A stretch of 64,000 nt of DNA from Cliona cf. orientalis (lineage: Eukaryota; Porifera; Demospongiae; Clionaida; Clionaidae). The position numbers were made by a program, and so were the translations under genes. Under the pieces are notes generated by a model. That model made no database searches. It worked only from the letters and a program-made list of their open reading frames with translations, and was not told the origin of the DNA. Of this stretch, positions 6,409 to 57,800 are shown one piece after another. The stretch lies in NCBI GenBank assembly GCA_963930775.1, contig OZ005691.1, forward strand, positions 3,658,001-3,722,000. Direction: 5' to 3'. Position 1 is the stretch's first letter, and each line of letters opens with the position of its first letter.

Positions 6409-8601
6409 ATGGCTCCGTGGCTATCTTATCAGATCCAGACCAGATTTCAAGGCAGAGAAGCTATTCACTCAGCAGATCCAGACAAGATAGAGAAGCTACT
6501 CAAGGATGACCTGGCGTACTCTCACACACAGAGGCCCAAAGAACAAAGTCCCCACTCGTACTCACTGTCTAGTTTGCTGGCCTGAAGAGGGAGACTCCCT
6601 GTCAGTCGTGGCTGTGAAGAAGATTGTGACCCCCAGGCCTGATGATTTGGCTCCAGACACTTTCTGCAAAGTAAAAGGTTTGGAGAAGTACCCATGTAGA
6701 GTGGTTGCAGTAGGAACTGAAGGTGAAGTGAAGGCAGTCATGAATGACATGCAAGTGGAAGAAAAGGATGATGAACCCTGTCCCCCACCCAAGAAGAAAG
6801 CTAGAACTGAGCTACCCAAAAAAAACAGAGGTGGAAAAGAGAATCATGTACCACGTTCTGGCCAAGGGAAGGGTACATCTACCACGAAGAAGAAGGGCAG
6901 AATCATCATAGTGAGTGGTGATGGTAAAACACCCAGTGAGAAACAGAGTGATCCATCAGAACAAGTATCCACTTCTCCAAGTCCAGCAGAGCAGTCTGAT
7001 ACAGCTAGTGATGGTAAAACACCCGGTGAGAAACAGAGTGATCCACCAGCCACTTCTCCAAGTCCAGCAGAGCAGCCTGATACAGCTAGTGATGATAAAA
7101 CTCCCAGTGAGAAACAGAGTGATCCACCAGAACAAGTATCCACTTCTCCAAGTCCAGCAGAGCAGTCTGATACAGCTACCACGCTGGAGGAAACCTCCAA
7201 TTCTCTCTCCAAAGCACAGACTAGTAACTCCACTGCACCCCTCGAACTTGTTCAACCCTCCCTAGAGCAGCTACAAGCCAACAGAGTTTCTCCGACCCAA
7301 GCTGACAACCCACGAGATGATCCACGTAATTGCTCACAAAAGGAAGGACAAGGCAACGATGAAGAACTGAAGGAAGATAGTGACGATGGTAAGATTACAT
7401 GTATGTGTAGCAATGCACTAGACACACTCACGTTATTTTTACAGGTGCATGTACATGTACATGTGCAGGTGCATACATGTACTTTACTGTGTGTGATTAG
7501 TGATCAACCTCTATCATTGATTTTACAGGTGATCTGCTTCTAAACTTGACAGTGGATAACAACTCTAAACGCTTGGAATATCTTGAGGCAGAGGTTGTCA
7601 AGCTACAGGCAGCAGGTAAGTGCACTAAGCTTATACAGTAATACATTTGATGTACATGTATTATGACTATCTAATGCTTATGTTCAGATGCAGACAAATC
7701 CAAGAGACTAAGAGAGTTGGAGGCAATAGTGGCTAGACTGGAGACAGCTGCGCAGAACAGCAACTGTTCATTCCCCCCTCCCATTCCACCCAAGGGTATC
7801 CCTCCTGGGCCACCAAATGTAGTGACATCCACTGATAGACTGGAGACTTCCCTTCACCTGCCTGCCATCCCACCCAAGGATATACCTCCTCCACAGCTGA
7901 ATTCAGTGTCAACTGAGGCTGGGGGACTACCCCAGGATCTCCCAACTCCCCCACTTCCCAGATCAGAAACAAGCCCACCACCACTGCCACCTCCATTGCC
8001 ACCTCTCGACTATAGACCCCACCCTATTCCCAAGACCCTCCAGCCACCACATCATCCTCCACCCACTCTGGCCTACACTCCCTGTGCACCACGTCATCCT
8101 GCCCCCAGTCTGTCCCTCACACCGCATGCATCAAATCACCCTCCACCCCGTCATCTATTGAGCACCCCACCACCACCACCACATCCTCCTCCTCAGCTTC
8201 CTCGAAGAGAATCTCGGGAGCAGGCACCACCAACTCTGCCATCCTCATCCATCCCGAAGAGCAGTCTGTTACCTGTCAGCTCTGTTGTGCATAACTATGC
8301 TGATCTGGTTGGAAAGGAGGGGAAAATGACAACTCTAGCAGTTGCTCTTGCCAGAGAAGCTTTCTTTGGGGAGGAGGTGATGGCTCAGTGTACGGCAAAG
8401 GGGTATGGTGGCAAACCAGGACTACCACAGCAAGAATTGATGGCGTTGAAAGAGGAGATTCGCAGACTGTTCCCAAACTATTGGAATAGTCCACTGGTAT
8501 TTGAAGAAAAATGGAACAAATGCTCTGAGCAAATCAGCCAGGCTTGCAATAGAGCAAGAGCCAAGAGGAGGAAGAAGGGTCTTAATACTAACACGGACTA
8601 A
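6409..8601 (+). CDS. BEN-domain protein encoded in a Tc1-type transposon
   Basis: Three exons fit GT-AG rules: to 7388, 7529-7615 and 7688-8601. The N-terminal part reads CWPEEGDSLSVVAVKKIV..KYPCRVVAV, like a small Tudor/SGF29-type fold. Then come a lysine-rich stretch, three ~29-residue repeats (TPSEKQSDP.., STSPSPAEQSDTAS), a short leucine-rich coiled-coil exon, a long proline-rich linker, and a C-terminal BEN-like domain (VALAREAFFGEEVMAQCTAKG through WNKCSEQISQACNRARAKRRK). BEN domains bind DNA or chromatin proteins. The start is uncertain: an ATG at 6409 opens a plausible frame (KIEKLLKDDLAYSHTQ) that must shift frame near 6563 to join the rest, while the ATG at 6506 is already in frame. 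Either a small insertion has damaged the gene or 6506 is the real start. A role in regulating the element is inference. Confidence 0.75.
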
Positions 8602-8815: not shown

Positions 8816-9907
8816 TTAATACCCAGTAGCAGCTCCTTCTAGTTCTATAACCTTGGGAATAACCTTATTCAAATGATTGATGTACCTGTTGCACTTTTCA
8901 ATGCTGACAGTTTCCCAGAATTTCAAGATTCCATCAATAACTTCTTGCTTTGTCCGTGGTTTCACCTCTCTCCGGCTGAATTCCTTTAACTCATGCCATA
9001 GATTCTCTATGGGGTTAAGATCAGGGGATTCTGCTGGCGTCTTCCATCAATTGATCCCATTCTCGGTGATAAAATCTCTTGCATAGATAGACGTGTGTTT
9101 CGGATCATTGTCCTGCATAAATCGATGTGAATCTGGAAACTCTTTTTCAATAAAAGGAACGAGAGTTCTGTCCAGAATCTCAGTAAACAGAAACCTATCC
9201 ATAATTCCCTCGAAAATACAGATCTCGGTTCTTCCTTTTCTCGAGATACCTGCCCAGATGTGTACTTTCACTGGATGCTTTGCTCTAGAAAAAAAACAAA
9301 ACAAAATGAGTAGTCATATAATTATGTATCAGCACACACCAGTGTGCTGGAACATACTTGTACATGTTCGAACGTACCTAGGCTTTGGCTTCGGGGCTTG
9401 GCCAATTTTGCGACAGCAAAATCGCCGGTGAGTTTCTAATTGTACAGTGGCCTCATCTGTCCAGATTACATCATCAAAATCGTCATCTTTGTGTTGCTCA
9501 CTCCACTGCAGACGCTTCACCTTGTTCGCATCCCTGATTAGCTGACAGTAAGCACTCCCTCGAAATGTCCATCCCAGCGTAGTGCGACAGCGTAGAACCG
9601 TTTTGAGCGAAATCTCAATTCCGTTCTCAACTAGCAAGTGATGCAGTTGGTATGCGGTGGTCTCATCGTCTTTTTGCATTTGTTCTTCGACAAGCTCTTT
9701 GACTTGCATGGTGACCTTAGAAAGCCTCCCAGAGCCTGGTCGTCTCTGAACTGACCCAGTCTCTCTGTATGTGACCAGGAACTTGTGGACTCCAAATCTG
9801 CTCACTTTTATTCCCTCTTCTTCTAACACTTTGGCAATAGTGTAGGGCCTAAGACCATGCAAGTGATGGTGGATGATCCTCAACTTCACGTAAGTGGTGT
9901 AAGGCAT
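8816..9907 (-). pseudogene. Tc1-like transposase (DD34E) interrupted by one stop codon
   Basis: Exon 1 is 9907-9378 and exon 2 is 9284-8816, joined across a 93-bp GT-AG intron. The protein starts MPYTTYVKLRIIHHHLHG and has paired helix-turn-helix segments. Catalytic positions are visible: D in IWTDEAT, D in MQDNDPKHTS, and E in SPDLNPIENLWHELK, with 34 residues between the second D and the E. A TGA at 9047-9049 falls in frame just before WKTPAESPDLNP, so the third acidic residue lies beyond the stop. The frame is otherwise open to a TAA at 8816. This is one nonsense change from an intact frame and is annotated as broken. It reads towards the BEN gene; the two stops are about 215 bp apart. Confidence 0.9.
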
Positions 9908-13267: not shown

Positions 13268-13570
13268 CTGCAATGTGCAACGAGGTGACATCACATGTGC
13301 ATGTATCATTTAATCCCACAATTATGCCACCTGCACTTTTAGCTCAAGTTCCTACATACATAGTTTGTCGCGTGTATAATCCCCTCTCTGATGATAAGAT
13401 ATTGGAGTCCAAAAGCCAATAAAAACAGTAGTACACTAACCATTTGCACCTCAGTGCTAGCATGCAGAAGGGGGGGGGGGGGCATTATTGTGGCATTCTA
13501 CGGTACATATAGACCTACATAATACTACATGTGTACATACAACGAAGTGAAGTGTGTCAGCATTCAACAC

Positions 13571-13642
13571 TAGCCTGGAACCCAGGCGCGAGGGGGAGGG
13601 GGAAAGAGCGCCTGGTACACACTGTATGCGCATGCGCTTAAT
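13571..13642 (+). repeat. Left terminal inverted repeat of the DUF6589/RecQ element
   Basis: This is 72 bp and identical to the inverse of 18872-18943. It contains TGCGCATGCGC, an NRF1-like palindrome, near its inner edge, and a G-run block 'cgcgagggggaggggg'. Confidence 0.95.
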
Positions 13643-13858
13643 TAATCAATGGGAAACGCGTGGTTGCGGCCGCCAAACGTCACCAAGTTAATGGGTGTGG
13701 TCTTATGACGTCTGTAGCGCAAGCGCATGGCGCAAGCTTACCGTACGCGCGGGGTACGCGTACACGGCGATCGCGCGTGCGCAAAACGATCGCGCGCAAT
13801 ATTGAAGCTACTTTGTACTGTTACTGTTTAACGAAGCTGTATCCTAAGCCACGTGGTC

Positions 13859-16800
13859 ATGGAGGTGCACTGTCGACTTTGTATTCTGAAGATTACTTCC
13901 AAGCACAGTGTTAGTTTGTTCAAGAGTGAAAACTTTCAGCAAAGTCTAGCAGCTAGAGTGGTAGCCCTGTTGGATGTGCCAGTGGAAAGCAATGATGGAT
14001 TATCCCAAGTCATCTGTGAGCGGTGTAAACGACGATTAGTGCGATTGGAGAAGGCATCAGAGGAGCTTTCTGACTTTAGAAAGCTAGCACGTGACAGCTA
14101 CCAATCGTTTCTGCCCAGATCCTCACTGAAACGCACCAAAGAGACAAGTGCCATGGTTGGTGTATCACCTGATACACAGAAAGCTAGGCCACCACCGAAA
14201 AGATTAACTACGAGAAGGCTAGATTTTGGACAGACATCAACTGGTGAGCAAGTGAATGATGCATATAGTACTGTACATATAGAGCTACATAAAATTATTT
14301 TTAATAGGTGAATGTCCATCTGTTGAGGGAATGATTCCGAATTCATTGTCCACGATCTCACAAAAGGACATTCCAATTACTCCCTTGAAAGTAACGGAAC
14401 CATTACCCCTGAGTGAATGTAAGAATAGCATGCTTAATTAGAGTACTATGATGGACATTTTTCACTTACTTTAGTGCACATTAACACCACTTCTCAGCTG
14501 GCTTTACCTAAACAGACAGTAACAGTAAGGGTTTGCATTATTCCTTGATTGAAATAATATTATTCTTGCTTAATACTCTATAGGTATGTGTGTCTTCTCG
14601 CTCTAAAATGACCTCTTATTCAAAAGTTCTCCCTGATGAATACACTAAACTTGGTAAAGAATTAGCCGGGGGCCATCTATCATCTGTAGCAAAAGCAGTA
14701 GTTGGGCATAAGCAGTTGCAGGAAGAAATTCTTAAATTACTACTTGATAAAGTTGATAATAAATGCAGTGAGCTTTGTCGTCGGCAGTCTAGTAGTCGAT
14801 CATTGTTTCGGCGTGCTCCACTGATGCAATTTTTAGAATGGGATTGGAAGCTTGCTATAGATGAGCTTGCTAGTAAGGCACCAACCCTGCTGCATGTTCT
14901 TACCACTATTGCGTCGCGCTCTGACCATCGCAACTCAAAGAAGTTAGGAAGTGCTCACTATCCTGGTATTATTATGAGTGCCGCTGTCATCCTAAAAGAG
15001 AGAAATAGAGAAATGATAGGAATCCAATCGCTTATATCTCTACTTCTATTCAACTCACGAGTGGAAAAACAAGTAAACATTTTATTGATTTTGTATAATA
15101 TTATTATAATTTATGCAAACAATGCTCTATAATCAGGTTTACCATCGCCTTAATCATGTTGGAATCTGTCTCAGTTACAATGGCACACTAAAGTTAATTG
15201 ATGAGGTTAGTAAACTTCACAGTGTTCCACTGACGCAATGGATTGCTGATGGTGTTGTATTTAAATTTTGGGGTGATAACGTAGACAAAAAGAGGGGCGT
15301 GAGAGATGTTAGATCTGATCATCAAAAGTCTATGGTGCACATGTACAGTATTCTGGCAGGGCGCAGCCGCACTCCTGCTCCACACCTGTCTGATCAGGGA
15401 AATGTTGCTGACTTAGCAGGTCTATCTTATACAGAGTTTTTACCAACACAGCATGATGTGGAACGTGTTACATCCAACATGGTGGTAATTGTAAGTAGAA
15501 TACTCACTGAGTACATAAGTGATCTTGCACCTTTGTCAAAGGCTGTGATAAAACATATTCCCCATAAATACTCGGCAGAGATGTCAAAAAAATCGGAAGT
15601 AGTTGTGCTTGATGTATTGATGAAAAACGAAGCTAAACATAGTGACATGATTGATATTCTAAAGCAGATGGTGGGTTATCTAGGAGAGGATTATCCTCAC
15701 GAGAAAAGGGTGGCATCTGGAGGAGATCAGTTAACAACGGAGAGACAGGTTGGAGCTCAGCGTCATGTTATGTGTGGAAATCGTCCAGAAGATCGCCTGG
15801 ATGTTCTCGAGCCACAAACAGAAGACTGGCATTGTCTTGTAGTTCTTTTGACAGTAAGTAACTATAAAAATTTATTCTATATACATGGCATTATTAACAG
15901 TTATACTATTGTTATACTAATTGTAGGTGATTTGGAAGACTTTGTACAGACATTCTTCACGAGACCACGGTACACTTGGTTATTTTCAGAGTTTGCTGAA
16001 TAGATATAATGTAAAAGACCCGAAGAAAGAGGTAGATGCTAGTATAGACTTTCTTCTGACGGTTGTAAAGGGTCATTTTTTGGCATGTGCTTGTAAGATA
16101 CTCGGAATAACGTCACTCAACTCACGAGTAGCATTGCCACCACACATTTACAAAGCCACCATTGATCAGCAAAGGGCATACATCACATCAATTGCAAAAC
16201 AAGTAGTATATCAATGCACTTTAGTCAACGAAAGCTTCGTTAACGGAAAGGTATGCGACTCAGGCGACCACATCTACAACTATGCTAGGGTGCTGTGTCA
16301 CTTTGGTACCATGGTCATGGAATTCAGAGGTGGATGGGGCAATGGTGATAGTGATAGAATGTTCACATGCTGGCGTCTGCTTTTACCTCATTTCATAGTA
16401 GCTGGACGAACAAAATATTCATTGGAGGCTTTAAGACTTCAAATACAGGTCAAGTCTGTGTTATCTCCTCAATTAGCACATCATGTCAAGTGGGATCGGT
16501 TTGTAAATACACATGGAGGGGCTGGGAGAAATATCCCATGTGACCTTTATAATGAGCACGTGAATAAACTTCTAAAGCATATCATTGTAACTATGGGTGC
16601 AAACTTCACAGAAAAGGCACTACATAGAGCTGCTCAATCAGTAACCACCTTAGAGAGCATTTGTGAGAGATTTGATCAACAATCTGGAGTCCCAGTGGGC
16701 ACTCATGCTCATTCAACCCGTTGTGATAAACAAGATATCAGCAAGGTTATTAATACAGTCTTAACTAGAGAACTACTTGAAATACATCCAGGAAGGGCAC

Positions 16801-16973
16801 ACACAGCTTTCAAAACAATGAGACTAAACCCCCTATGGAACTGGGACATTAGCAAGACTCGGGAGTGGATAGAAAAAAAGAAAAAGCAGTTTATTATGTT
16901 TAGAGGAGCTATGAGAAGAGAGGATTCAGAGGAGAGCTGTAGTGAGGCTGATAGTGATTACGAAGATGACTAG
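13859..16973 (+). CDS. DUF6589-like protein with N-terminal zinc-binding domain (putative Academ-type transposase)
   Basis: Six exons join cleanly in frame (13859-14243, 14308-14418, 14475-14524, 14584-15072, 15137-15853, 15927-16973) into 932 residues. Residues 1-65 carry CRLC and a later ICERCKRRL, a ZAD-like four-cysteine pattern. A serine/lysine-rich linker follows. The large C-terminal part has the DUF6589 hallmarks: MKNEAKHSDMIDILKQM, ASGGDQLTTERQVGAQR, QTEDWHCLVVLLTVIWK and SSRDHGTLGYFQSLLNR. Candidate acidic catalytic residues are D in FWGDNVDKKRGVRD, D in GGDQLT and E/D in TEDWH; their assignment is inference. The tail is acidic (SEADSDYEDD). No stop or frameshift is seen. It is convergent with the helicase gene 100 bp away and both lie between the same inverted ends. 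Confidence 0.85.
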
Positions 16974-17073
16974 CTTTTGAAAGACAATAATTGACTATCT
17001 TATGTACATAACATGTGCACGCACACAATGTATGTAATAAGCAAAATGTCATCATTATGAACACTTATTATTA

Positions 17074-18734
17074 TTATTGTGGGTGTGAACATACATCACA
17101 ACAAGTATGTGGATTGGTACCTACACAAGCTATAGAAGGATCAAAGTAGTCCAGAAGCCATTTTCGACGACAAACAGTGTTATTTTCAAGATACCTCCTA
17201 ACATTTGCAACCTCATGATCCCTTACGCTAGTTAGCTCCTTTCTCATGGGGCAGTCTTTGGGCTTCCAAAATACAATAGATTTAGCAGGATCACCACTAC
17301 GGCCTCCACGTCCACTTTCTTGGAAGTAATCGTCAATACTTTGTGGAGCACCATAGTGAATGATTGTGTTTGTAGCTTTGAGATCAATGCCCATTCCTAG
17401 TGCAACAGTTGCAAAAATAGTCCGCACAACACCATCCTCTTGAGACAAGCTCTTTAGTATAACCTCCTTGTTGTACTCTGGAGTATGCGCATGGAACATT
17501 CCAAAGAGACGGTTATCACTAACTTTGTCAGCACCATCTGGATAGTACGCTTTTTCACCTAGTTCATACAGAAAGTATGCATACAATTCTGAACATACAT
17601 TTAACGATCGACAGTAGATAATTGTCCTTGGTGATTTAACTCTAAGTTGCTTCAGGGATTCCAAATAAGGATTTAGATCACTTTCCATATCGGTTGATCT
17701 CAACACTTTGTAGAAAATATTAGGCCTATCTGGAGACTTGCTAATGATTTCACATCCTTCCATTTCAAGCCTCTTGATAATTTCATCACGTACACTTTTG
17801 GTAACTGTTGCAGTGCAAGCAAGCAGGGGGGTAGATGGTGGGACAAGAGCTCGAATCTCATGTAATCGTCCATAGGATGGCCTAAAATCCTTACTCCTGA
17901 AAGATATACAGAGGTATGGAAAAGGAAAAGAGAGCCAGGGGAGAGAGGGATAGAGATAGCGAAAGAGGGGGGGATAGTTGTGTAGCTTAAAGGAAATAAT
18001 TGACAAAATTTAATATACATTGTATACGTACACGGTCACAGTGACTGGCTACAGCTAATTCTAAACAGGCATCGTAAAACACAGAATCTGAAGATGGATG
18101 CACAATATATTACTAAAGCACATACCAATGGATAGTGCTAGTAGCACAATCTATCACATACAGGGCCAAGCGTGGCTACTATTATACATGTACTTGCTTC
18201 AGTACATGCGTATATTATGTACTAGTGAATTAGTGTTGCATACCATTTAGAAACACAGTGTGCTTCATCAACAATAACAGCTACGACTCTGTCATGGATG
18301 CCAGATTGTTGAAGCAACTCTCTCCATTTAGAGCTCACTAGGGCTTCAGGAGAACAAAATAAGAGGCTGTACATACATGAGTCACTGTGTTCATCAGATG
18401 CTATGACTTCCTTTTGAGTCCCTTTTCCATATGAAATGACTGCAGCACTGACTCCATAACTTCTGAGAGTTATCACTTGACTGACCATCAGTGAAATTAA
18501 TGGTGATATTACCAAAACCAGACTTCTGTTGTCCTTGTTGCCTAGCTTGTAGTCGTATGCGAAAGGCAAGGCTTCAAAGCATATAGATTTTCCAAATCCG
18601 GTGGGCAACCACACGAACGTATCTTTTCCCATGAGTACGGACTTGATGGCTTGAGTTTGCTCGGGCTTGAGAATAAGCGAAGGTCGCCCAAGACGCTCAA
18701 GGGCGTACTGAAGGGCATAGTCAGCTTCCTCCAT
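17074..18734 (-). CDS. RecQ-type ATP-dependent DNA helicase encoded in the transposon
   Basis: Two exons, 18734-18244 and 17896-17074, join across a GT-AG intron inside HCVSKW|SKDFRPSYGRL to give 437 residues. Superfamily 2 motifs are in order: Q motif LKPEQTQAI, Walker A LPTGFGKSICFEALPF, DEAHCVSKW, TATVT, the CRSL strand, TVALGMGIDLK, and motif VI YFQESGRGGRSGD. A zinc-binding cysteine set follows (CRRKWLLDYFDP then CCDVC), and the protein ends there. It therefore lacks the winged helix and HRDC domains of cellular RecQ proteins. The length, loss of accessory domains and position inside perfect inverted ends argue for a transposon helicase rather than a host BLM/RECQL gene. It could unwind ends or replicate the element; that role is inference. 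Confidence 0.92.
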
Positions 18735-18871
18735 ATACGCGATACTGTAGCGGCCGTATGGCTTGCATGCACTATGGATGCATTACGTATTTACGATTAC
18801 GTAAGCACTACTGACGTCAGCATGAAACGGACTTTTACTGAGGAATACTGAAGCCGTGGAATGTCAGGGCG

Positions 18872-18943
18872 ATTAAGCGCATGCGCATACAGTGTGTACC
18901 AGGCGCTCTTTCCCCCTCCCCCTCGCGCCTGGGTTCCAGGCTA
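18872..18943 (-). repeat. Right terminal inverted repeat of the DUF6589/RecQ element
   Basis: A 72-bp perfect inverse of 13571-13642, followed by the second copy of the 10-bp flank CATTCAACAC. Confidence 0.95.
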
Positions 18944-19013
18944 CATTCAACACTAGAATGTTGTCTTCCACACACATAATTATTGTGTGCATAATAATTA
19001 TTGTCACAATTGC

Positions 19014-20672
19014 GCTATACAGCCGTTAAGCCAGTGGTCCAATTGTTGCAGATACAGGAAGTGCATCCGGTGGCACATTCCAGTGCATGCAATTTTTGCC
19101 GTTTTTTTTATCTATTTTTCTTACTTGTTCTATCTAGGCAATCTTTCACTTCTAGAACTCCAAACAAAGACCAGAAGACAGAGAAACTCTTCTACTTTCT
19201 GCTCGTTCAAGTCCCATAACCCGGAGATATTATTCATGAGCTCCGCGGCAAGCGCTTTTGTGCATGCTACTCGCAAGCGCTCACAAAAAGTGCCTCGCGC
19301 AAAAAGTGGTACGTTTTGGTTCCCCTGGATGATTCCCATGATTCAAGCACCATTCAATGGCTCTTGTATTGCTCTACAATATGAGACTGGAACAACGTTT
19401 TTCCATGAGCGGTTCCAGAGTTACACGGCATCAAAAATCAGAAAATTTCAGTACAACCGCGTGGTATTTTTCCATATCTTCTCGAAGGTTTATAGAGTCT
19501 GCCCAAGAACAAATCGTAAAGGACAAGAAAAGGAGTATTCCTTGTGTACTGCCAAGCTTCTAGGGAGGAGGCATCGTCATCCAGATGGAAGGATTTCTTC
19601 TCTATAGTCAAGTAAGCATACCTGAATGTTGGCCACGGTGAATAACAACATTATCATGACAAAGCGTGTGTGAAGTGAGTGTATCAGCACTAGCATAAGT
19701 CCAGGGATGGGGGTGAGCCTTACCAGTGTACATCAGAGAATGAGCCTGTGTTAAAGCAACTCACATCGAAGCTGAAAACTAGTCTCGCGCGCCAGGCTGG
19801 GGACAAGACTAGCTGAAAACCCCGAGCATATACTTGCAATTGGGCGGTAGCTAGTACTTGACTAGTGCTTTTTTATCTGTGTCTCTCCCTCCCTCCTTCT
19901 CTCCCACTCTCTCTGTCTCTTTCCTTCTCCCTTTCTCTCTCTCTCCCTTCCTCTCTCTCTCTCTCTCTCACCCTGACCCCATGTAGGTACACAATAGGTG
20001 ATGTTCCCGGCTGTGATCAGATTACCAAGTATATGAAGAGAGTGCTTCTGTCAACCATAGCTATGATGATGGAATAGGAGACCGATTGTGAAAGCTCCAA
20101 CAACCTTCAGCAAAACTTTAAGATGGCCTTTGATAGCTAGCAGCAATATAGCTAGCTTGTACTATATAGCTAGCTTGTACTATGTTTAATGTCATTGGTT
20201 TGTATGTAAACGTACACAGTAAAATAGCAATTATTGTACTTTTTTTACAGCGTGTAACCTTGGAACTGCTCGATGGAAAAACTTCGTTCCAGTCTCATAT
20301 TGTAGAGCAATACAAGAGCCATTGAATGGTGCTTGAATCATGGGAATCCATCCAGGGGAACCAAAACGTACCACTTTTTGCGCGAGGCACTTTTTGTGAG
20401 CGCTTGCGAGTAGCATGCACAAAAGCGCTTGCCGCGGAGCTCATGAATGTCTCTGGGTTATGTGACTTGAACGAGCAGAAAGTAGAAGAGTTCCTCTGTC
20501 TTGTGGTCTTTGTTTGGAGTCCTAGAAGTGAAAGATGGCCTAGATAGAACAAGTAAGAAAAATGGATAAAAAACGGTAAAAATTGCATGCACTGGAATGT
20601 GCCACCGGATGCACTTCCTGGATCTGCAACGCTTGTACGTGTTTTGGACCGCTGGCTTAACGACTGTATAAC
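19014..20672. repeat. Large imperfect inverted repeat (arms about 420 bp)
   Basis: Left arm about 19014-19430 and right arm about 20245-20672 are inverted copies, sharing for example 'catgagctccgcggcaagcg', 'aagtgcctcgcgcaaaaag' and 'gtgcatccggtggcacattc'. The spacer of about 800 bp includes a CT-rich run at 19875-19978. Long frames in the arms are mirrored copies and have no recognisable domain. It could be a foldback element. Confidence 0.75.
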
Positions 20673-32786: not shown

Positions 32787-32994
32787 TTTACAATTGATCA
32801 ACTCTCTAATACGCTAAAAACTTCTATCTTGCGTGTCAGACATCGTCATTTTTACTATTTCAGGTCGCTGAAGCCCGAAATATACTTCGATCGCTCGCAC
32901 GCGTGCTCTGTAGTCAGTGACTCTACTGTTCATAAATCTCAAGCTCAATCTTCCAGTCACAGTAAGCTTATTGCTCCTTCTGAAGTCTGGCATT

Positions 32995-33109
<115 letters not shown>

Positions 33110-33164
33110 TATACAGTACGAATTTAATATTAGGTATATTTTAATATTTTCACAGTTGTACACT

Positions 33165-36100
33165 ATGCCAAGACTAGTAAGGAAAAAAACATTTCGACGT
33201 AAAAAGAAGCGAGCTCCTACCATCGTAAAGAACACTAAGAAACCTCGAGTATCGGTCAAGCGTAAGCAATGGACGGAGGAGCAAATGCATCAAGCGATTG
33301 AGTGTGCCAGAACTGGAGATATTAGTGCCAATAAGGCGGCTGAAATGTATGGAATTCCAAAATCGACACTAAAAGACAGATTAAGTGGTCGTGTCCAACC
33401 TGGAAGATATCCTGGTCCACGCCCATACCTTGAACCTTCAGAAGAAGCAGAGCTTGCATCTCATTTAATGGAAGCGGCAGCTATAGGAGTTGGAAAGACC
33501 AGGAGTGAAGTGATGAGAATTGCTCAAGAAGTTGCGGAGGCAAAGGGTGTTCTTAAGCAGAAACGAATAACTCCTGGTTGGTGGCGTAGGTTCCTTCAGC
33601 GAAATCCTGCTCTACGATTACGTGCTGGAGACGCCACAGCAGGTGTGAGGATAGACGCTGTGAATGAAGAAAACATGCATGCTTACTTTTCCCTTTTGAA
33701 GGAGGTGTACGATGAACTTGACTTTGAATCACACCCCGAAAGAATTTACAACATGGATGAGACTGGTGTTCCCCTCGATCCTCGACCTCCTAAAGTATTG
33801 GCAAAGAAGGGGCAAAAGAAAGTACGATATCGCTGTTCAGGTCAAAAGGCGCAAATTACAGTTGTCGGTTGTTGCAGTGCTACTGGTCAGGCCATTCCTC
33901 CGTTTATAATATTTGCAGCAAAGCAACTGAATGCATTGTGGATGAGGGATGAAGTAGCTGGAAGTAGATATGCAGTCTCAGAAAACGGTTGGATTGATCA
34001 GGATCTCTTCCATTTTTGGCTCACTGAACATTTTCTACAACATGCAATCAGTAATGGGCCCGTTCTGTTACTCCTTGATGGGCATAGCTCACACTTTAAG
34101 CCTGACACAATCCAATTTGCCAAAGAGCACAATGTGGTGGTCTTCTGCCTACCACCGCACACCACCCACGAGTGTCAACCTTTAGACTGCTCTTTGTTTG
34201 GGCCACTTAAGGTGCACTGGAGGCATGTCTGTCACGAATTTCATCAGAAGAATCCCAATGGAAGCATCACAAAGCTCAATTTCACTGGCTTGTTCAAGCA
34301 AGCATGGCTCAAGGCAATATCAGCTGAGAATATTGTTAACGGTTTCAAAAAAGCTGGTGTCTACCCTTTTGATCCAACCAGAGTGTCGGTACTTGGAAAG
34401 GAAACGAGTGATCATTGCAGTAATTCGACAAACAATGGTGGAAATCCAGAAGATGATTCTTCTCATAGTGATAACAACGATGGTGATGCTAGTGGAGGTA
34501 GTGTTCTTTCGGATAATGATGATCCTTTGGATGGTGAGGATCCTTCTGAATGTCATCTAATGGACAATGGTCTTGACTATCTTGGTGATCTCTTTTATGA
34601 TGAAAATTTGAACCAGTCTGATTCCTCTAATGAAGTGTCCTTCTCTGCTGAACAAGAAATGCTTTACCAGCAAAGGCTTGAGGAGGGATGTGATATATTT
34701 GATTCCAGTTATCTTTCGTGGCTCGAGAAATTTCACCCAGAAGCCGTACCAGTGGATTGGTACACTCTAATTTCAGCCCCAACAATAAGCATACCTCAAG
34801 TCTCGTCTCTATCTTCCAACATGGAGCAGTCTCATGAAGAAGCAGCTTCCTCTACCTCTCTGACAGGTGGCTCGGGTTCTAAAGTGGCTCCCTCTACCTC
34901 TCCGACAGGTGGCTCCAGTTTTAAAGTGGCTCCCTCTACCTCCCAGACTGGTGGCTCTGCTTCTAAGGCAGCTCCCTCTACCTCTCCGACAGGTGGCTCT
35001 ACTTCCAAGGAAGCTCCCTCTACCTCTCTGACAGGTGGCTCCGGTTCTACAGTTGCTCCCTCTACCTCTCCGACAGGTGGTTCTACTTCTGAGGCAGCTC
35101 CCTCTACCTCTCCGACAGGTGGCTCTACTTCTAAGGAAGCTCTCTCTACCTCTCCGACAGGTGGCTCCGGTTCTACAGTGGCTCTCTCTACCTCTCGGAC
35201 TGGTGGCTCTACTTCTGAGGCAGCTCCCTCTACTTCTCCGACAGGTGGCTCTACTTCTAAGGCAGCTCCCTCTACCTCTCCGACAGGTGGCTCTACTTCT
35301 AAGGCAGCTCCCTCTACCTCTCCGACAGGTGGCTCTACTTCTAAGGCAGCTCCCTCTACCTCTCCGACAGGTGGCTCGGATTCTAAAGTGGCTCCCTCTA
35401 CCTCTCCGACAGGTGGCTCTACTTCTAAGGCAGCTCCCTCTACCTCTGGTATGGATGGCTCAAATTCTGAAGCAGGTTTCAAAAGCACTCCTGCTGGTAC
35501 CCCTGCATCTAAAACAAGTTCTTCAACCTCATCTACAAGCTCATCTGAAGGTACTAAAAGCTTTATTTCAAGTTTCTTACCTTCTCTTCCGGACACGACC
35601 CCATCTCGGCCCAACACAAAGAAGCAGAGTGGTGCCAGAGTTCTCACTAGCAAGGAGTGCCTGGATTTATTAAAGGAGAAGGAGATGAAAAAGCAAAAAG
35701 AGAAAGAAGAAAAAGAGAAACGTAAATTGGAAAGAGAGAAAAAGAAAGAAGAACGGGAAAAGGAAATGCAAAGAAAAGCAGAAGCCCGAGCACAAAAAGC
35801 AGCAGAGAAAGCAAAGAAGCAGGCTGAAAAGGAGAAGAGCGCCCGAGAGAAAACTGCGGAGAGGCTGAAGAAGACTCAAGAGAAGGCAGCTAGGACACCA
35901 GTGACTCATAAAAGAGCAAGATCTACAGCATCTTCAACTGAAGAAAGGGCATTAGACAAGGAACCGAGGTCAAAGGCACCAAAAACAACTGATGACACCA
36001 TAGATTTTGACAGGTGTTGTGCCTGCTTTGGATTGTATGTAGATGATGCTGGCACTGACCGTGAGTGGATTGAGTGTTCATGCAGCCGGTGGATCCATGA

Positions 36101-36176
36101 AGAATGCGTAGAGAATGTGATACATGACGCCAACGGCAAGGAATTACTCTGCCCTGTGTGTTTGTCGTCAGTGTAG
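33165..36176 (+). CDS. Pogo-like transposase with C-terminal PHD-like finger
   Basis: The ATG at 33165 follows a 'ttttcacag' acceptor; a donor (ctgtaagt) at about 31963 suggests a leader exon. The 1003-residue protein has: a basic N-terminus; a Psq-type helix-turn-helix (WTEEQMHQAIECARTG, then KAAEMYGIPKSTLKDRLSG) at about 35-80; a CENP-B-like second helix-turn-helix with GWWRRFLQRNP; a DDE_1 core with catalytic D in NMDETGV (~197), LLLDGHSSH (~304) and ECQPLDCSLFGPLK (~340). A 14-residue tandem repeat (TGGSTSKAAPSTSP, ~14 copies) and a Lys/Glu-rich coiled coil follow. It ends in a cysteine-rich PHD-like finger (FDRCCACFGLYVDD.., EWIECS-CSRWIHEEC.., LLCPVCLS). No stop or frameshift is present, so the copy may be active. 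The low-complexity linker is unusually long. Confidence 0.9.
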   Translation: MPRLVRKKTFRRKKKRAPTIVKNTKKPRVSVKRKQWTEEQMHQAIECARTGDISANKAAEMYGIPKSTLKDRLSGRVQPGRYPGPRPYLEPSEEAELASHLMEAAAIGVGKTRSEVMRIAQEVAEAKGVLKQKRITPGWWRRFLQRNPALRLRAGDATAGVRIDAVNEENMHAYFSLLKEVYDELDFESHPERIYNMDETGVPLDPRPPKVLAKKGQKKVRYRCSGQKAQITVVGCCSATGQAIPPFIIFAAKQLNALWMRDEVAGSRYAVSENGWIDQDLFHFWLTEHFLQHAISNGPVLLLLDGHSSHFKPDTIQFAKEHNVVVFCLPPHTTHECQPLDCSLFGPLKVHWRHVCHEFHQKNPNGSITKLNFTGLFKQAWLKAISAENIVNGFKKAGVYPFDPTRVSVLGKETSDHCSNSTNNGGNPEDDSSHSDNNDGDASGGSVLSDNDDPLDGEDPSECHLMDNGLDYLGDLFYDENLNQSDSSNEVSFSAEQEMLYQQRLEEGCDIFDSSYLSWLEKFHPEAVPVDWYTLISAPTISIPQVSSLSSNMEQSHEEAASSTSLTGGSGSKVAPSTSPTGGSSFKVAPSTSQTGGSASKAAPSTSPTGGSTSKEAPSTSLTGGSGSTVAPSTSPTGGSTSEAAPSTSPTGGSTSKEALSTSPTGGSGSTVALSTSRTGGSTSEAAPSTSPTGGSTSKAAPSTSPTGGSTSKAAPSTSPTGGSTSKAAPSTSPTGGSDSKVAPSTSPTGGSTSKAAPSTSGMDGSNSEAGFKSTPAGTPASKTSSSTSSTSSSEGTKSFISSFLPSLPDTTPSRPNTKKQSGARVLTSKECLDLLKEKEMKKQKEKEEKEKRKLEREKKKEEREKEMQRKAEARAQKAAEKAKKQAEKEKSAREKTAERLKKTQEKAARTPVTHKRARSTASSTEERALDKEPRSKAPKTTDDTIDFDRCCACFGLYVDDAGTDREWIECSCSRWIHEECVENVIHDANGKELLCPVCLSSV
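34850..35470 (+). repeat. Coding minisatellite, 42-bp period
   Basis: About 14 copies of a 42-bp unit encode TGGSTSKAAPSTSP variants in frame within the transposase. The antisense strand is also open over it, which creates a false long ORF. Confidence 0.95.
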
Positions 36177-38385: not shown

Positions 38386-38589
38386 GGAGCATTTATTATT
38401 ATTAATTTTGCATACTATAGTTGCAATAAAATCATATATATACTAGCTAGAGAAGAAGTTGAAGATGAAGGTGAGACACGATAATAATGACTGAGAGGTG
38501 CATAATATGATATCAGTTCCTTTATGGCATAGTTTCAGCAGTGTCAACCTGGCTGATCATGCATGCATGCATGATGTGCATCATATATC

Positions 38590-40434
38590 TCCAAATCTAT
38601 GGGAGTTGATGGTATCCCGTCAAAACTGCTAAAAAGCTGTGCTCTGGCCCTGTACATTCCAATTCACCATCTTTTTTCTGTGAGCCTTACCAAACACATT
38701 ATTCCAAATGAATGGAAGTGCCATTCCATCACCCCAATCCACAAATCTGGTGACAAGGCTCAAGTAACTAACTACAGACCAATCTCGCTACTATGTATAA
38801 TCTCTAAAGTTCTCGAACGGTTGGTTTATGATCACCTGAACAAATTCATCACCAAAAATTGCATTATCTCTTGTTCTCAATTCGGCTTTCGAAAGAGTCA
38901 CTCGACTAACCAGCAGCTACTCCTATTTCTGCATAAGGTGCACCAGAGCCTCAACTGCAATTCAAACTGTGATGTCATCTACCTTGATTTTCGTAAGGCA
39001 TTTGATAGTGTGCCTCACAATGAGCTCTTAATCAAGCTTTGGTCAATTGGCATCACAGGAAACTGCTGGTACTGGATCAAAGAATACCTATCTCACAGAA
39101 CCCAACAAGTCTGCATAAATGGGTGTTACTCATCCTCCCTTCCAGTCATCTCTGGCGTCCCCCAGGGGAGTATCTTAGGTCCTCTTTTATTCCTATTATA
39201 TGTCAATGACTTGCCAATTGAGGTGTCTCACTCCACTCCTTACCTCTTTGCTGATGACACTAAATGTTTAAAAGCAATTTCATCTGACCTGGACTCTCTG
39301 CAACTTCAACAGGACTTGAATTCCCTTTCTGCTTGGAGTACAGACTGGAAGCTCTCCTTCAATGAACTAAAGTGTATTTTACTATCATTCCAATCCAGTA
39401 ACACTTCTGCTCTTACGCCTACTACCACTACCACGTCATATCAAGTAAATGGTCACGTAGTAGCCCCCAAATCTCAGCATAGGGATCTTGGAGTTGTGAT
39501 GTCCCATGATCTTTCATGGACTGGTCATCTTTCACTAATTGTAAAACAAGCTTACAAAAAGCTTGGTCTACTACGTCGGTCCTTCTCTGCAACTACCAGT
39601 ATAAGTGCAAAAAAATCTCTATACTTATCATTAGTCCGGTCTCAACTTGTCTACTGCTCTCAAGTTTGGCGTCCACATCTTGTCAAGGACATTAAGCTCC
39701 TCGAGGATGTCCAACGTCGGGCATCCAAATTCATTTTAAATGACTACGCATCTGACTACAAGACACGTTTATTGCAACTCAGCCTTTTGCCTCTCTCCAT
39801 GATTTATGAACTTAACGATTTATGTTTCTTTGTTAAATCCATCAAACAGCCATCCAGCTCCTTCAATATCCTGAATTACGTGTCCTTTAGCTGCAACAAC
39901 ACCAGATCCGGCTCCTTCTTGAAACTAGTACAACCCTTGGTACTAAATAATCGTCACAAGCACTTCTTTTTCATCAGAATTGTTCGTCTATGGAACTCCT
40001 TACCCCCAATTGACATTCATACCAGTAGCTATACCAGTATTGTGGCTAGCATCAAGTCCCTACTCTGGGACCATTTTGTTGCAGTTTTTGACCCAGCAAA
40101 CTCATGTACCTACCACTTTTGCTGCCCCTGTCCCAAATGTCAACCCCTAATCAAAGCATCCTTTCAAGTCAGTTGAGAGAGAGAGTCTGTCATTGTATTT
40201 GATAAATCCTGAACATACATAGCCATTCTTCTGTTTTCAATTACTCAGTGAAATTTTATCTTCTCAATTATTGTCATAACATAGCTACTTCATGTTAGTT
40301 AATTAGTTTGTATCCAGGCTGCCAGTTTGATCTGGTTGTCCTTCAGTCTGCACTTAATTTTTGCTTCATCACTACTTATCACCACCAGCCCCACTAATTT
40401 TCTATTTTCTTCCTCTTTGTGCATTCTGTAAAGC

Positions 40435-54861: not shown

Positions 54862-57800
54862 GCTACAGATGCTGATGTCGGCAATAACAACATTGTCTAT
54901 TTCCGTATACTATCCAATAATGTACCATACGTTGTGGATGGCGACTCTGGTGTTGTGACAATGGCTGGAGTGTTCGCTGGTCTGAGCGGTACGATGCACA
55001 ACGTGGAGGTGGAAGCATTAAATTTTGATAACTTTGGAATCCCTCCTACCAACAGAAGAACCGGAATAGTGACTGTGAGTTTCCTAGCGAATAGCTATAA
55101 TAAATATTAGACCCTATTCCACCATGACGTCACGCGCGCGGAGGGAGGTCAAAGGTGCGCATTAATTAGAGTAACGCCGTATAGCCGCGTGTAAAACAAG
55201 AAGAGAAGACGACTGCTTGTAAGCTCCAGCTGATTGCTGTTCTGTACAAAGAGCGGGAATCCTGTATGAAGGTGAGTTATAGCAGCTGTCTATGTATTTG
55301 AGTAGTTGCTAAAGTGTGAATGTCCTGTGTTAAAGTGTGCTGCAAAATTTGTACTGGGTTACTGAGTTTGAGCGAAAATTGAAGCGAAGGTGTGTATAAA
55401 GTAGGATTCTGTTGCTGCATGTGATGCCAAGAAATTGTTCTATTCCCGGATGCACGAGTAGAAGCGACAAAAAAGAGTGTGAACACCTTTCATTCCACAA
55501 ACTTCCAACAGATTTTGACAGAAGACATCAGTGGTTAGTAAGCATCAAGAGACCCATTAGAGTATCACCTTATACGTACATATGTAGCTTATATTTTAAA
55601 GATAATAAGAAAGAATCTAATAACGATATTCCAACCATTTTCCCATGGACCCCTACTACTACTACTACTACTACTACTCGTAAACCCCCCGCTCTTCGCC
55701 CCTTTACTCCCCCTGAACCTAAGAAACGTAAACAAGAAGCTGACACAACTAAACAATTACAAGAATATTCTAATTCAGTAACTAAACTGCAACAGGAGAG
55801 TGCTAAGCTTGAAAAGGAGCTACAACGAGTAACGCAGGAGTTGGAGAACATTAAAATTAGTCAAGTTGAGCGATTTGGAATTTCTCGATTTCAAGGAAGT
55901 GACGATGACATACGTTTTTACACTGGTTTGCCTTCCTATGATATCCTACTATGTTTATACCACTATTTAGAACCTTTTCTTATCTATCTCCGCTATCGTC
56001 CAAGTAAGCATGAACAACCCACCCGCCAACTACTCAACCGCCAACGACTATTACAACCAATTGACGAATTATTTATGATATTAGTACGCTTACGCCTCAA
56101 TTTATTGGAGAAAGACCTTGCACACAGATTTAACTGTAGTCAGACCACAGTATCACGAATTTGCACAGCATGGTTACCCTTTTTAAGTTCACAGCTTCAT
56201 CCTTTAATTACTTGGCCATCACGTGAGTTAGTTAATCATCATATGCCTGCACAATTTAGAGGATTAGGGTTTAATAGGTGTTAGTCCAACAGGTGCGTGT
56301 ATTTTTGTGTCTAGTTTGTATACAGGAGGCATTTCAGACAAAGAAATAACTAAATGTAGTGGTATATTAGAGCTTATCGAGCCTGGTGATTCAGTCATGG
56401 CCGATAAAGGTTTCGATATATCATACGAATTATTTATACGTGGCTGTAAACTTAATATCCCCCCTTTTGTGAGAGGTGGACGTTTGTCCAAGACTGAGGT
56501 CACTAAGACTCGTAAAATAGCCTCATTACGTATTCATGTAGAGAGAGCCATTGGTTGTGTCAAACATTATCATATTTTAAGTAGTGTTATCCCATTAAGT
56601 ATTGCTCCATATGCTAATCATATCTGGTATATCTGTTGTGCACTTAGTTTATTTCACCCCCCATTAGTTGTGGATGTAGACAAATTATCAGATGCTGATC
56701 TAGCTAGGGTTAAACATGTTGTAGCAGCTGAACTTGATCATAACTAATTTTGTCCAAATTTCTATGTTATACACTATGATGTTGTGTAAACAATATAATT
56801 ATTAATACAATGCTATATACTATTGTGGTGATGATGGTGGAGATGATGTAGAAGTGTGCTGTGATGATTGTAGCCTTGCCAATTGCTCTTTATTTATAGT
56901 TTCTGGCCATACTTGGTGAAAAACCAAGGTGTCTGAGCTATGCTGTGATAAGTCTTGACGTAGTTTCATGATGCGTTGTATGGTTACTTGAGATAATTGT
57001 GGGGAAATAGGTATATGTGGTGATGATAGTCCAGTATTCTTAGGTTTGATATATGATGGCTTCTTAATATGTAAGTTAGGTATAGGGATGTCTTTTGGTT
57101 CCTTAATATTTTTCGGTATGTTCCATTTAGAGGGTACTGACGTGCATGATGGGGTTGGTAATTTACGATTATAGTCATCAATAGCGAACGATAGTGCGGC
57201 TACGTGATTGCATGATCCTCCTTCTCCAGCAGTGCACGAACAGATAGCGTGGTAAATCTCTCCTGATGTCTTATACACTACGATAAATGTGCGATATATA
57301 CGATCTGTTTTTTGTGATGGATGTACGTGTGCGCTAATTACTCTAAATAGACTGTCATCAGTGGGGGAATAAATAGATATCGATTGCACTTTCCTAGCAT
57401 CATAAATACGGTAGCCACGTTCAAAAGGTTTGCTAGCTGTTACTTGGTCCTTACGTACTCTTCGTTTGATAAAATAGCGATGTATATTATGTAATGATAG
57501 TGGAGGTACATGTGTCTTATTTACGTCATCCAGGTCTACCCAGTGCTCGTCATCTCTCATGGCTTTCTCCAGGATATCGGGTCTTTCCTCCTCAGTATCA
57601 CTTGATTCGCAAGATGAAACTCCCAAGTCCATAGCACCTTTAGTTCTGTTAATAATATTTAGAGTTGCAAGTTTATTAATTTTGTGTGTGGAACAAGTAG
57701 GTAAAGGGTTTCATGGGTACTAAGCTTAGAAAGTTGTGGGAGGAGCTAGAAAGGTCGTGTACTTTAAACTAATAGTTGAAGTTCGCAGGTGAAAGTGTAG

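Follow-up and report, generated by a model that had tools for sequence, protein, structure and literature searches.

What kind of transposon pairs a DUF6589 protein with a RecQ helicase, and how did a ZAD, a domain of animal transcription factors (TFs), come to stand at the front of its transposase? Both questions are raised by an element of 5,373 bp, at positions 13571-18943 of a 64,000-nucleotide stretch of the genome of the sponge Cliona cf. orientalis (GCA_963930775.1, contig OZ005691.1, positions 3,658,001 to 3,722,000), here called the window. The element is very probably an autonomous-looking AcademH DNA transposon belonging to a ZAD-bearing lineage. It probably represents a new AcademH family, placed by its duplication length and its helicase against published descriptions of AcademH.

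The element, its copies and its class

The element terminates in 72-nt inverted arms that are 100% complementary to each other, and it is flanked by an exact 10-bp duplication, both as reported in a first-pass annotation made from the sequence. The two stop-free gene frames recorded there were also recovered: a transposase gene of six exons, with five GT-AG introns of 56-73 nt, encoding 932 aa, and a two-exon helicase gene encoding 437 aa (Table 1). The element had been called apparently intact, which holds for the reading frames alone, activity being putative. Pfam matches of 53.2 bits in exon 5 and 79.5 bits in exon 6 (cut-off 27) bore out the DUF6589 identity of the larger protein, while DEAD, Helicase_C and RecQ_Zn_bind, all over Pfam cut-offs, agreed with the description of the smaller as a RecQ helicase cut down to its core and zinc module.

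The 216.8-Mb genome (149 contigs) was searched with the 130-bp left end, and the best 40 of 358 candidates were scored, such that counts are lower bounds; at least 41 matches were present among those listed. Copy C9 is full length and 99.85% identical to the window element, from which it differs by seven substitutions and the loss of 1 bp in exon 6. Copy C1, also full length, is 99.0% identical; it has 26 substitutions and, in exon 5, a deletion of 10 bp. Copy C10 has lost an internal 1,502 bp of the transposase gene, and among the four subfamily copies compared both genes are open in the window copy alone. More distant families have the first 66-79 bp of the end in common (81-93% identity) and some of them are short derivatives, 506-874 bp long, that carry ends of this kind. 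Exact target duplications were found at 14 of 15 end-bounded copies, being 9 bp in nine and 10 bp in five, with L022 lacking one; loci at which the two ends could not both be placed cleanly (L012, L013, L019, L020, L024 and L028) are outside this count. The same ends and length at two other places, together with these duplications, place the element beyond chance.

The search for further ends that the first-pass annotation had proposed thus returned copies with both ends in common and duplications of 9-10 bp, and its proposal of recent mobility is sustained by near-identical full-length copies elsewhere, the exact duplication, and two open genes. Its call for empty sites was answered in part. 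No perfect empty site was found when the joined flanks were searched against the genome; one related element-free locus is 71% identical across both flanks, but 17 nt are missing there right at the junction. On the right side of the element, a stretch of approximately 45-50 bp (window ~19015-19063) matches 37 of 40 listed genomic places at 84-98% identity, mostly 94-98%, indicating that the element lies beside or inside a common repeat.

Between families, the proportion of synonymous differences (pS) was 0.78-0.87 in seven pairs, and hence saturated, against a nonsynonymous proportion (pN) of 0.29-0.34, from which it follows that the transposase is under strong purifying selection. The window's subfamily has few substitutions and no such bias.

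AcademH elements, reportedly introduced by Kojima in 2020 (Mob DNA 11:15), are said to be helicase-encoding DNA transposons of animals and fungi. The window element resembles published AcademH, which we compare by description, in its 9-10-bp duplications and in the helicase beside the transposase, and differs in the N-terminal ZAD. AcademX elements encode a nuclease of the XPG type in place of a helicase, and XPG_I, their mark, occurs at only four places genome-wide; on this rarity and on the 9-10-bp duplications of the window element, AcademX was ruled out. According to excerpts of PMC10045372, AcademH has 9-10-bp target duplications and a helicase, AcademX has 3-4-bp duplications and a nuclease, the choice of helicase or nuclease may go with the duplication length, and the two form one superfamily; the AcademH reading of the first pass agrees with the published value. 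In a limited body of literature, with the founding AcademH description outside it, no paper brought zf-AD, transposase and transposon together, and a ZAD on an AcademH transposase was not found in print.

Two other readings of the element bear on this assignment. It might belong to another helicase-carrying superfamily, either KolobokH or an unnamed one, and merely resemble AcademH. KolobokH is likewise a DNA transposon encoding a RecQ helicase, one red-algal Kolobok has its helicase on the complementary strand (excerpts of PMC9587614), and, weighing against our assignment, the comparison with AcademH was by published description. Yet Kolobok duplications are the 4-bp TTAA and KolobokH is described in the same excerpts from fungi only, whereas the exact 9-10-bp duplications at 14 of 15 copies have the printed AcademH value, so that we hold this reading to be very unlikely; KolobokH itself was ruled out on duplication length and gene content. 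A dead remnant, its frames open by luck, is also improbable, though less so. Counting towards it, and likewise against an autonomous-looking transposon, the transposase gene is broken or deleted in three of the four subfamily copies compared; opposed to it are the identical ends, the exact duplication and the two open frames, the seven substitutions and one deletion relative to the closest copy, and the strong purifying selection between families.

The helicase had also to be distinguished from host genes, its grouping with host RECQL/BLM having been named at the outset as a check. It does not resemble a host RECQL/BLM gene: RQC was detected at three and HRDC at two genomic places, and none of these comes closer than 1.4 Mb to the 18 element-type helicases with which they were compared on shared contigs. 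Capture of a host RECQL/BLM gene was ruled out on the absence of RQC and HRDC from the helicase and the distance of host RecQ. One host RecQ piece examined was 34% identical over 131 aa, roughly as distant as the helicases of ZAD-less elements, and scores against solved relatives were similar (WRN 172 bits, a RecQ 162, RECQ1 150, BLM 148).

The ZAD and its lineage

The 'ZAD-like' N-terminus of the first pass proved to be a real ZAD. The window transposase matches zf-AD (PF07776) at 33.9 bits (cut-off 28). Ten of ten aligned element members match the profile too; C5, C8, C53 and C56 are invariant in the alignment, and identity to the window ZAD ranges from 27 to 52% within the group. A profile of these ten reached the solved structures of Grauzone (E-value 1.3e-6), LD15650p (5.3e-6), ZNF276 (1.1e-5) and LD30467p (2.2e-4), all of which we take to be ZAD proteins. 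CG2712 scored 0.29 in the same search, behind some unrelated chains, and the window ZAD alone reached the best solved ZAD structure at 0.086. With the ZAD zinc-finger TFs, such as Grauzone and ZNF276, the element shares the N-terminal CxxC...CxxC domain; in the TFs the ZAD is succeeded by C2H2 fingers, whereas behind the window ZAD no C2H2 finger array was found and DUF6589 stands there instead.

All 40 zf-AD candidates in the genome were scored, along with all 111 for THAP and 150 of 364 for C2H2. There were 27 zf-AD matches, 25 over the cut-off. For 24, an AcademH-type helicase stands on the opposite strand no more than 7 kb away; 17 of these 24 also have a listed DUF6589 nearby, and one more belongs to copy C9, in which the transposase exons were read. 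The three without a listed helicase have transposase exons downstream. Hence all 27 ZADs lie in such elements (transposase exons seen in 21, a neighboring helicase only in six), and no host ZAD gene was found among them. Among the 53 C2H2 places listed from the 150 scored candidates, the one closest to a ZAD is 143 kb away. THAP, another transposase finger, served as a control: only one of its 95 places is 8 kb or less from a DUF6589 place that was used, so clustering with DUF6589 genes is not a general property of zinc fingers.

Genome counts for the other two profiles are lower bounds, since 102 of 338 DUF6589 and 96 of 457 helicase candidates were scored; 102 of 122 listed DUF6589 pieces were used, after second, mostly N-terminal pieces were dropped, and 78 of 120 listed helicase pieces, after second pieces of the same element were dropped. 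An AcademH-type RecQ was located within 4 kb of 59 of the 102 used DUF6589 places, always on the opposite strand and on the 3' side in 58 of the 59. In a midpoint-rooted tree built from exon 6 of 40 transposases, which was flagged for long branches around the ZAD group, the 11 ZAD-bearing sequences fell on one side of a branch with support of 100/100 (the ZAD labels of L011 and L014 refer to broken ZADs and that of L028 to a ZAD just outside the examined piece). The tree also contained 14 ZAD-less sequences, 13 of which had a helicase within the examined piece, and a further 15-member DUF6589 group with diverged helicase traces at four loci only (20-31% identity). The helicase tree again placed the ZAD group on one branch, with weak support (74/50). 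Judged from these sequences, the transposases with a ZAD appear to form a single lineage. In ZAD-less lineages, no other domain upstream of DUF6589 exceeded Pfam cut-offs in six open reading frames (ORFs; ten minus one ZAD ORF and three DUF6589 exons), which possibly fall short of the N-terminus.

Predicted transposase fold, element ends and a proposed mechanism

DUF6589 is predicted to be a DDE transposase of the Hermes/P/RAG type, with D392, D542 and E794 as candidate catalytic residues. The structural model has a predicted RNase H-like core split by a large helical insertion, and a second-look aligner, whose own note urges caution for helical models, aligned it best with Hermes, P, Transib, ISCth4 and RAG1. 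Weighing against this assignment, a Foldseek search with the model gave no significant match; the rows that it returned (BetP, bestrophin and similar) were dismissed as relatives on TM-scores of ~0.1. For the RNase H fold suggested for checking in the first pass, the resemblance to nuclease-type transposases comes from the second-look aligner only, and not from Foldseek. At the sequence level, the DUF6589 profile had no match among Protein Data Bank (PDB) sequences at E <= 10, no relatives of exon 6 were confirmed in prokaryote genomes and viral contigs, and the term DUF6589 was absent from the papers in a limited literature search. The predicted core with its helical insertion is the likeness to hAT (Hermes) and P elements, from which the element differs in that the DUF6589 profile matches no solved chain in sequence. 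The hAT and P transposons make 8-bp duplications and carry BED or THAP fingers in place of the ZAD, and they are not known to encode a helicase.

Across 25 aligned ends, the fixed blocks TAGCCT, CCCAG, GCCTGGTA and GCGCATG surround a purine-rich spacer of variable length. An inverted repeat is made up of CCAGGCnCt and aGn'GCCTGG, and its pair n.n' varies on both sides between families (T-A in 10 ends, C-G in six, G-C in six, G-T in two and a mismatch in one). Pairing holds in 96.4% of cells, versus 20-52% when shifted by 1-3 columns, and the covariation score was matched by none of 500 shuffles. Several points tell against covariation: only one of nine pairs varies on both sides, the counts of both-side-varying pairs and of pair types were not above those of shuffles, and the compared ends are related by descent. 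Support for covariation of the inverted half-sites is accordingly modest, and the repeat would suit either a facing pair of identical binding domains or a hairpin formed on strand parting.

In the mechanism that we propose, the N-terminal ZADs would pair two transposases, hold the inverted half-sites CCAGGC...GCCTGG in each end, or both. The transposase would cut at the TAG...CTA tips, and the element would be joined into its target with a 9-10-bp stagger, the gaps being filled by host repair. The RecQ core, without RQC and HRDC, may open DNA or process and trim it at the ends or gaps. An assay could take both its donor and its test substrates from nature, in the full copies and the short derivatives.

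Table 1. Positions of element features in the window, and loci of a DUF6589 lineage with few helicase traces
Feature	Position	Strand	Description
Target site duplication, left copy	13561-13570		CATTCAACAC
Left terminal inverted repeat	13571-13642	+	72 bp; starts TAGCCTGG; recurs at other copies' ends
Internal inverted repeat in left end	13582-13615		CCAGGCGC (13582-13589) and GCGCCTGG (13608-13615), purine-rich spacer between
Transposase exon 1	13859-14243	+	Carries ZAD (zf-AD), ~13868-14068
Transposase exon 2	14308-14418	+	
Transposase exon 3	14475-14524	+	
Transposase exon 4	14584-15072	+	
Transposase exon 5	15137-15853	+	First part of DUF6589
Putative catalytic D392	Codon 15275-15277, exon 5	+	GDN motif; putative role
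Putative catalytic D542	Codon 15725-15727, exon 5	+	GGDQLT motif; putative role
Transposase exon 6	15927-16973	+	DUF6589, helical insertion; stop 16971-16973
Putative catalytic E794	Codon 16554-16556, exon 6	+	DLYNEHVNK; putative role
Helicase exon 2	17074-17896	-	Helicase_C, RecQ zinc-binding module; lacks RQC and HRDC
Helicase exon 1	18244-18734	-	DEAD domain, Walker A and DEAH motifs
Right terminal inverted repeat	18872-18943	-	72 bp
Target site duplication, right copy	18944-18953		CATTCAACAC, 10 bp, exact
15-member DUF6589 lineage	L032, L038, L040, L043, L049, L051-L058, L063, L064		Faint helicase traces nearby

Elsewhere in the window, a 1,129-aa frame (32787-36176, plus strand) carries HTH_psq and DDE_1, as in pogo/CENPB-like transposases, and continues into a long serine-rich repeat and a C-terminus rich in cysteine, and THAP is joined to HTH_Tnp_4 at 55400-56284 (plus strand), apparently as part of another DNA transposon or as a derived gene. 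A LINE-like reverse transcriptase frame of 533 aa (38575-40176, plus strand), a Tc1/mariner-like N-terminal HTH frame (9329-9907, minus strand; over the PAX cut-off, with a Tc3 HTH match under the cut-off) and a proline-rich frame with a BEN domain (7675-8601, plus strand) were also present. At the mitochondrial COX1 locus, TGA encodes Trp and AGR encodes Arg at conserved sites, and COX1 adjoins atp8/atp6-like frames, large subunit (LSU) rRNA and a set of complete tRNAs for Arg(ucu), Lys and Met, features that point to a demosponge.

Origin of the transcription-factor ZAD

In the genome of this early-branching animal, ZAD was found only in transposons. ZAD zinc-finger genes have been dated in print to the ancestor of arthropods and vertebrates, and the available part of the main text of a catalogue of transposon-derived animal TFs (PMC10027918) has no ZAD or zf-AD. 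An ordinary AcademH may have captured its ZAD from a host ZAD zinc-finger gene, making the transposon recipient and not source, and we give this close to an even chance: the same genome has ZAD-less AcademH-like lineages, and the ZAD is confined to one group. Set against capture are the lack of a host ZAD gene among the 27 places, the remoteness of the listed C2H2 places, and the divergence of the ZADs within the group, which implies that the association of ZAD and transposase is old. The single genome at hand favours such an old link between ZAD and AcademH, in whichever direction the domain moved. More tentatively, and as a possibility that we consider rather doubtful, the ZAD of the largest insect TF class and of vertebrate ZNF276 could have begun as an end-binding or pairing domain of an AcademH-type transposase, later taken by C2H2 genes, in the way that THAP fingers have been traced back to the transposases of P elements.

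For AcademH, the Hermes/P-like DDE prediction offers a concrete fold assignment for DUF6589, and with three named candidate residues it makes the catalytic mechanism directly testable. If the pattern seen here holds in other phyla, ZAD would join THAP as a transposase domain turned TF domain.

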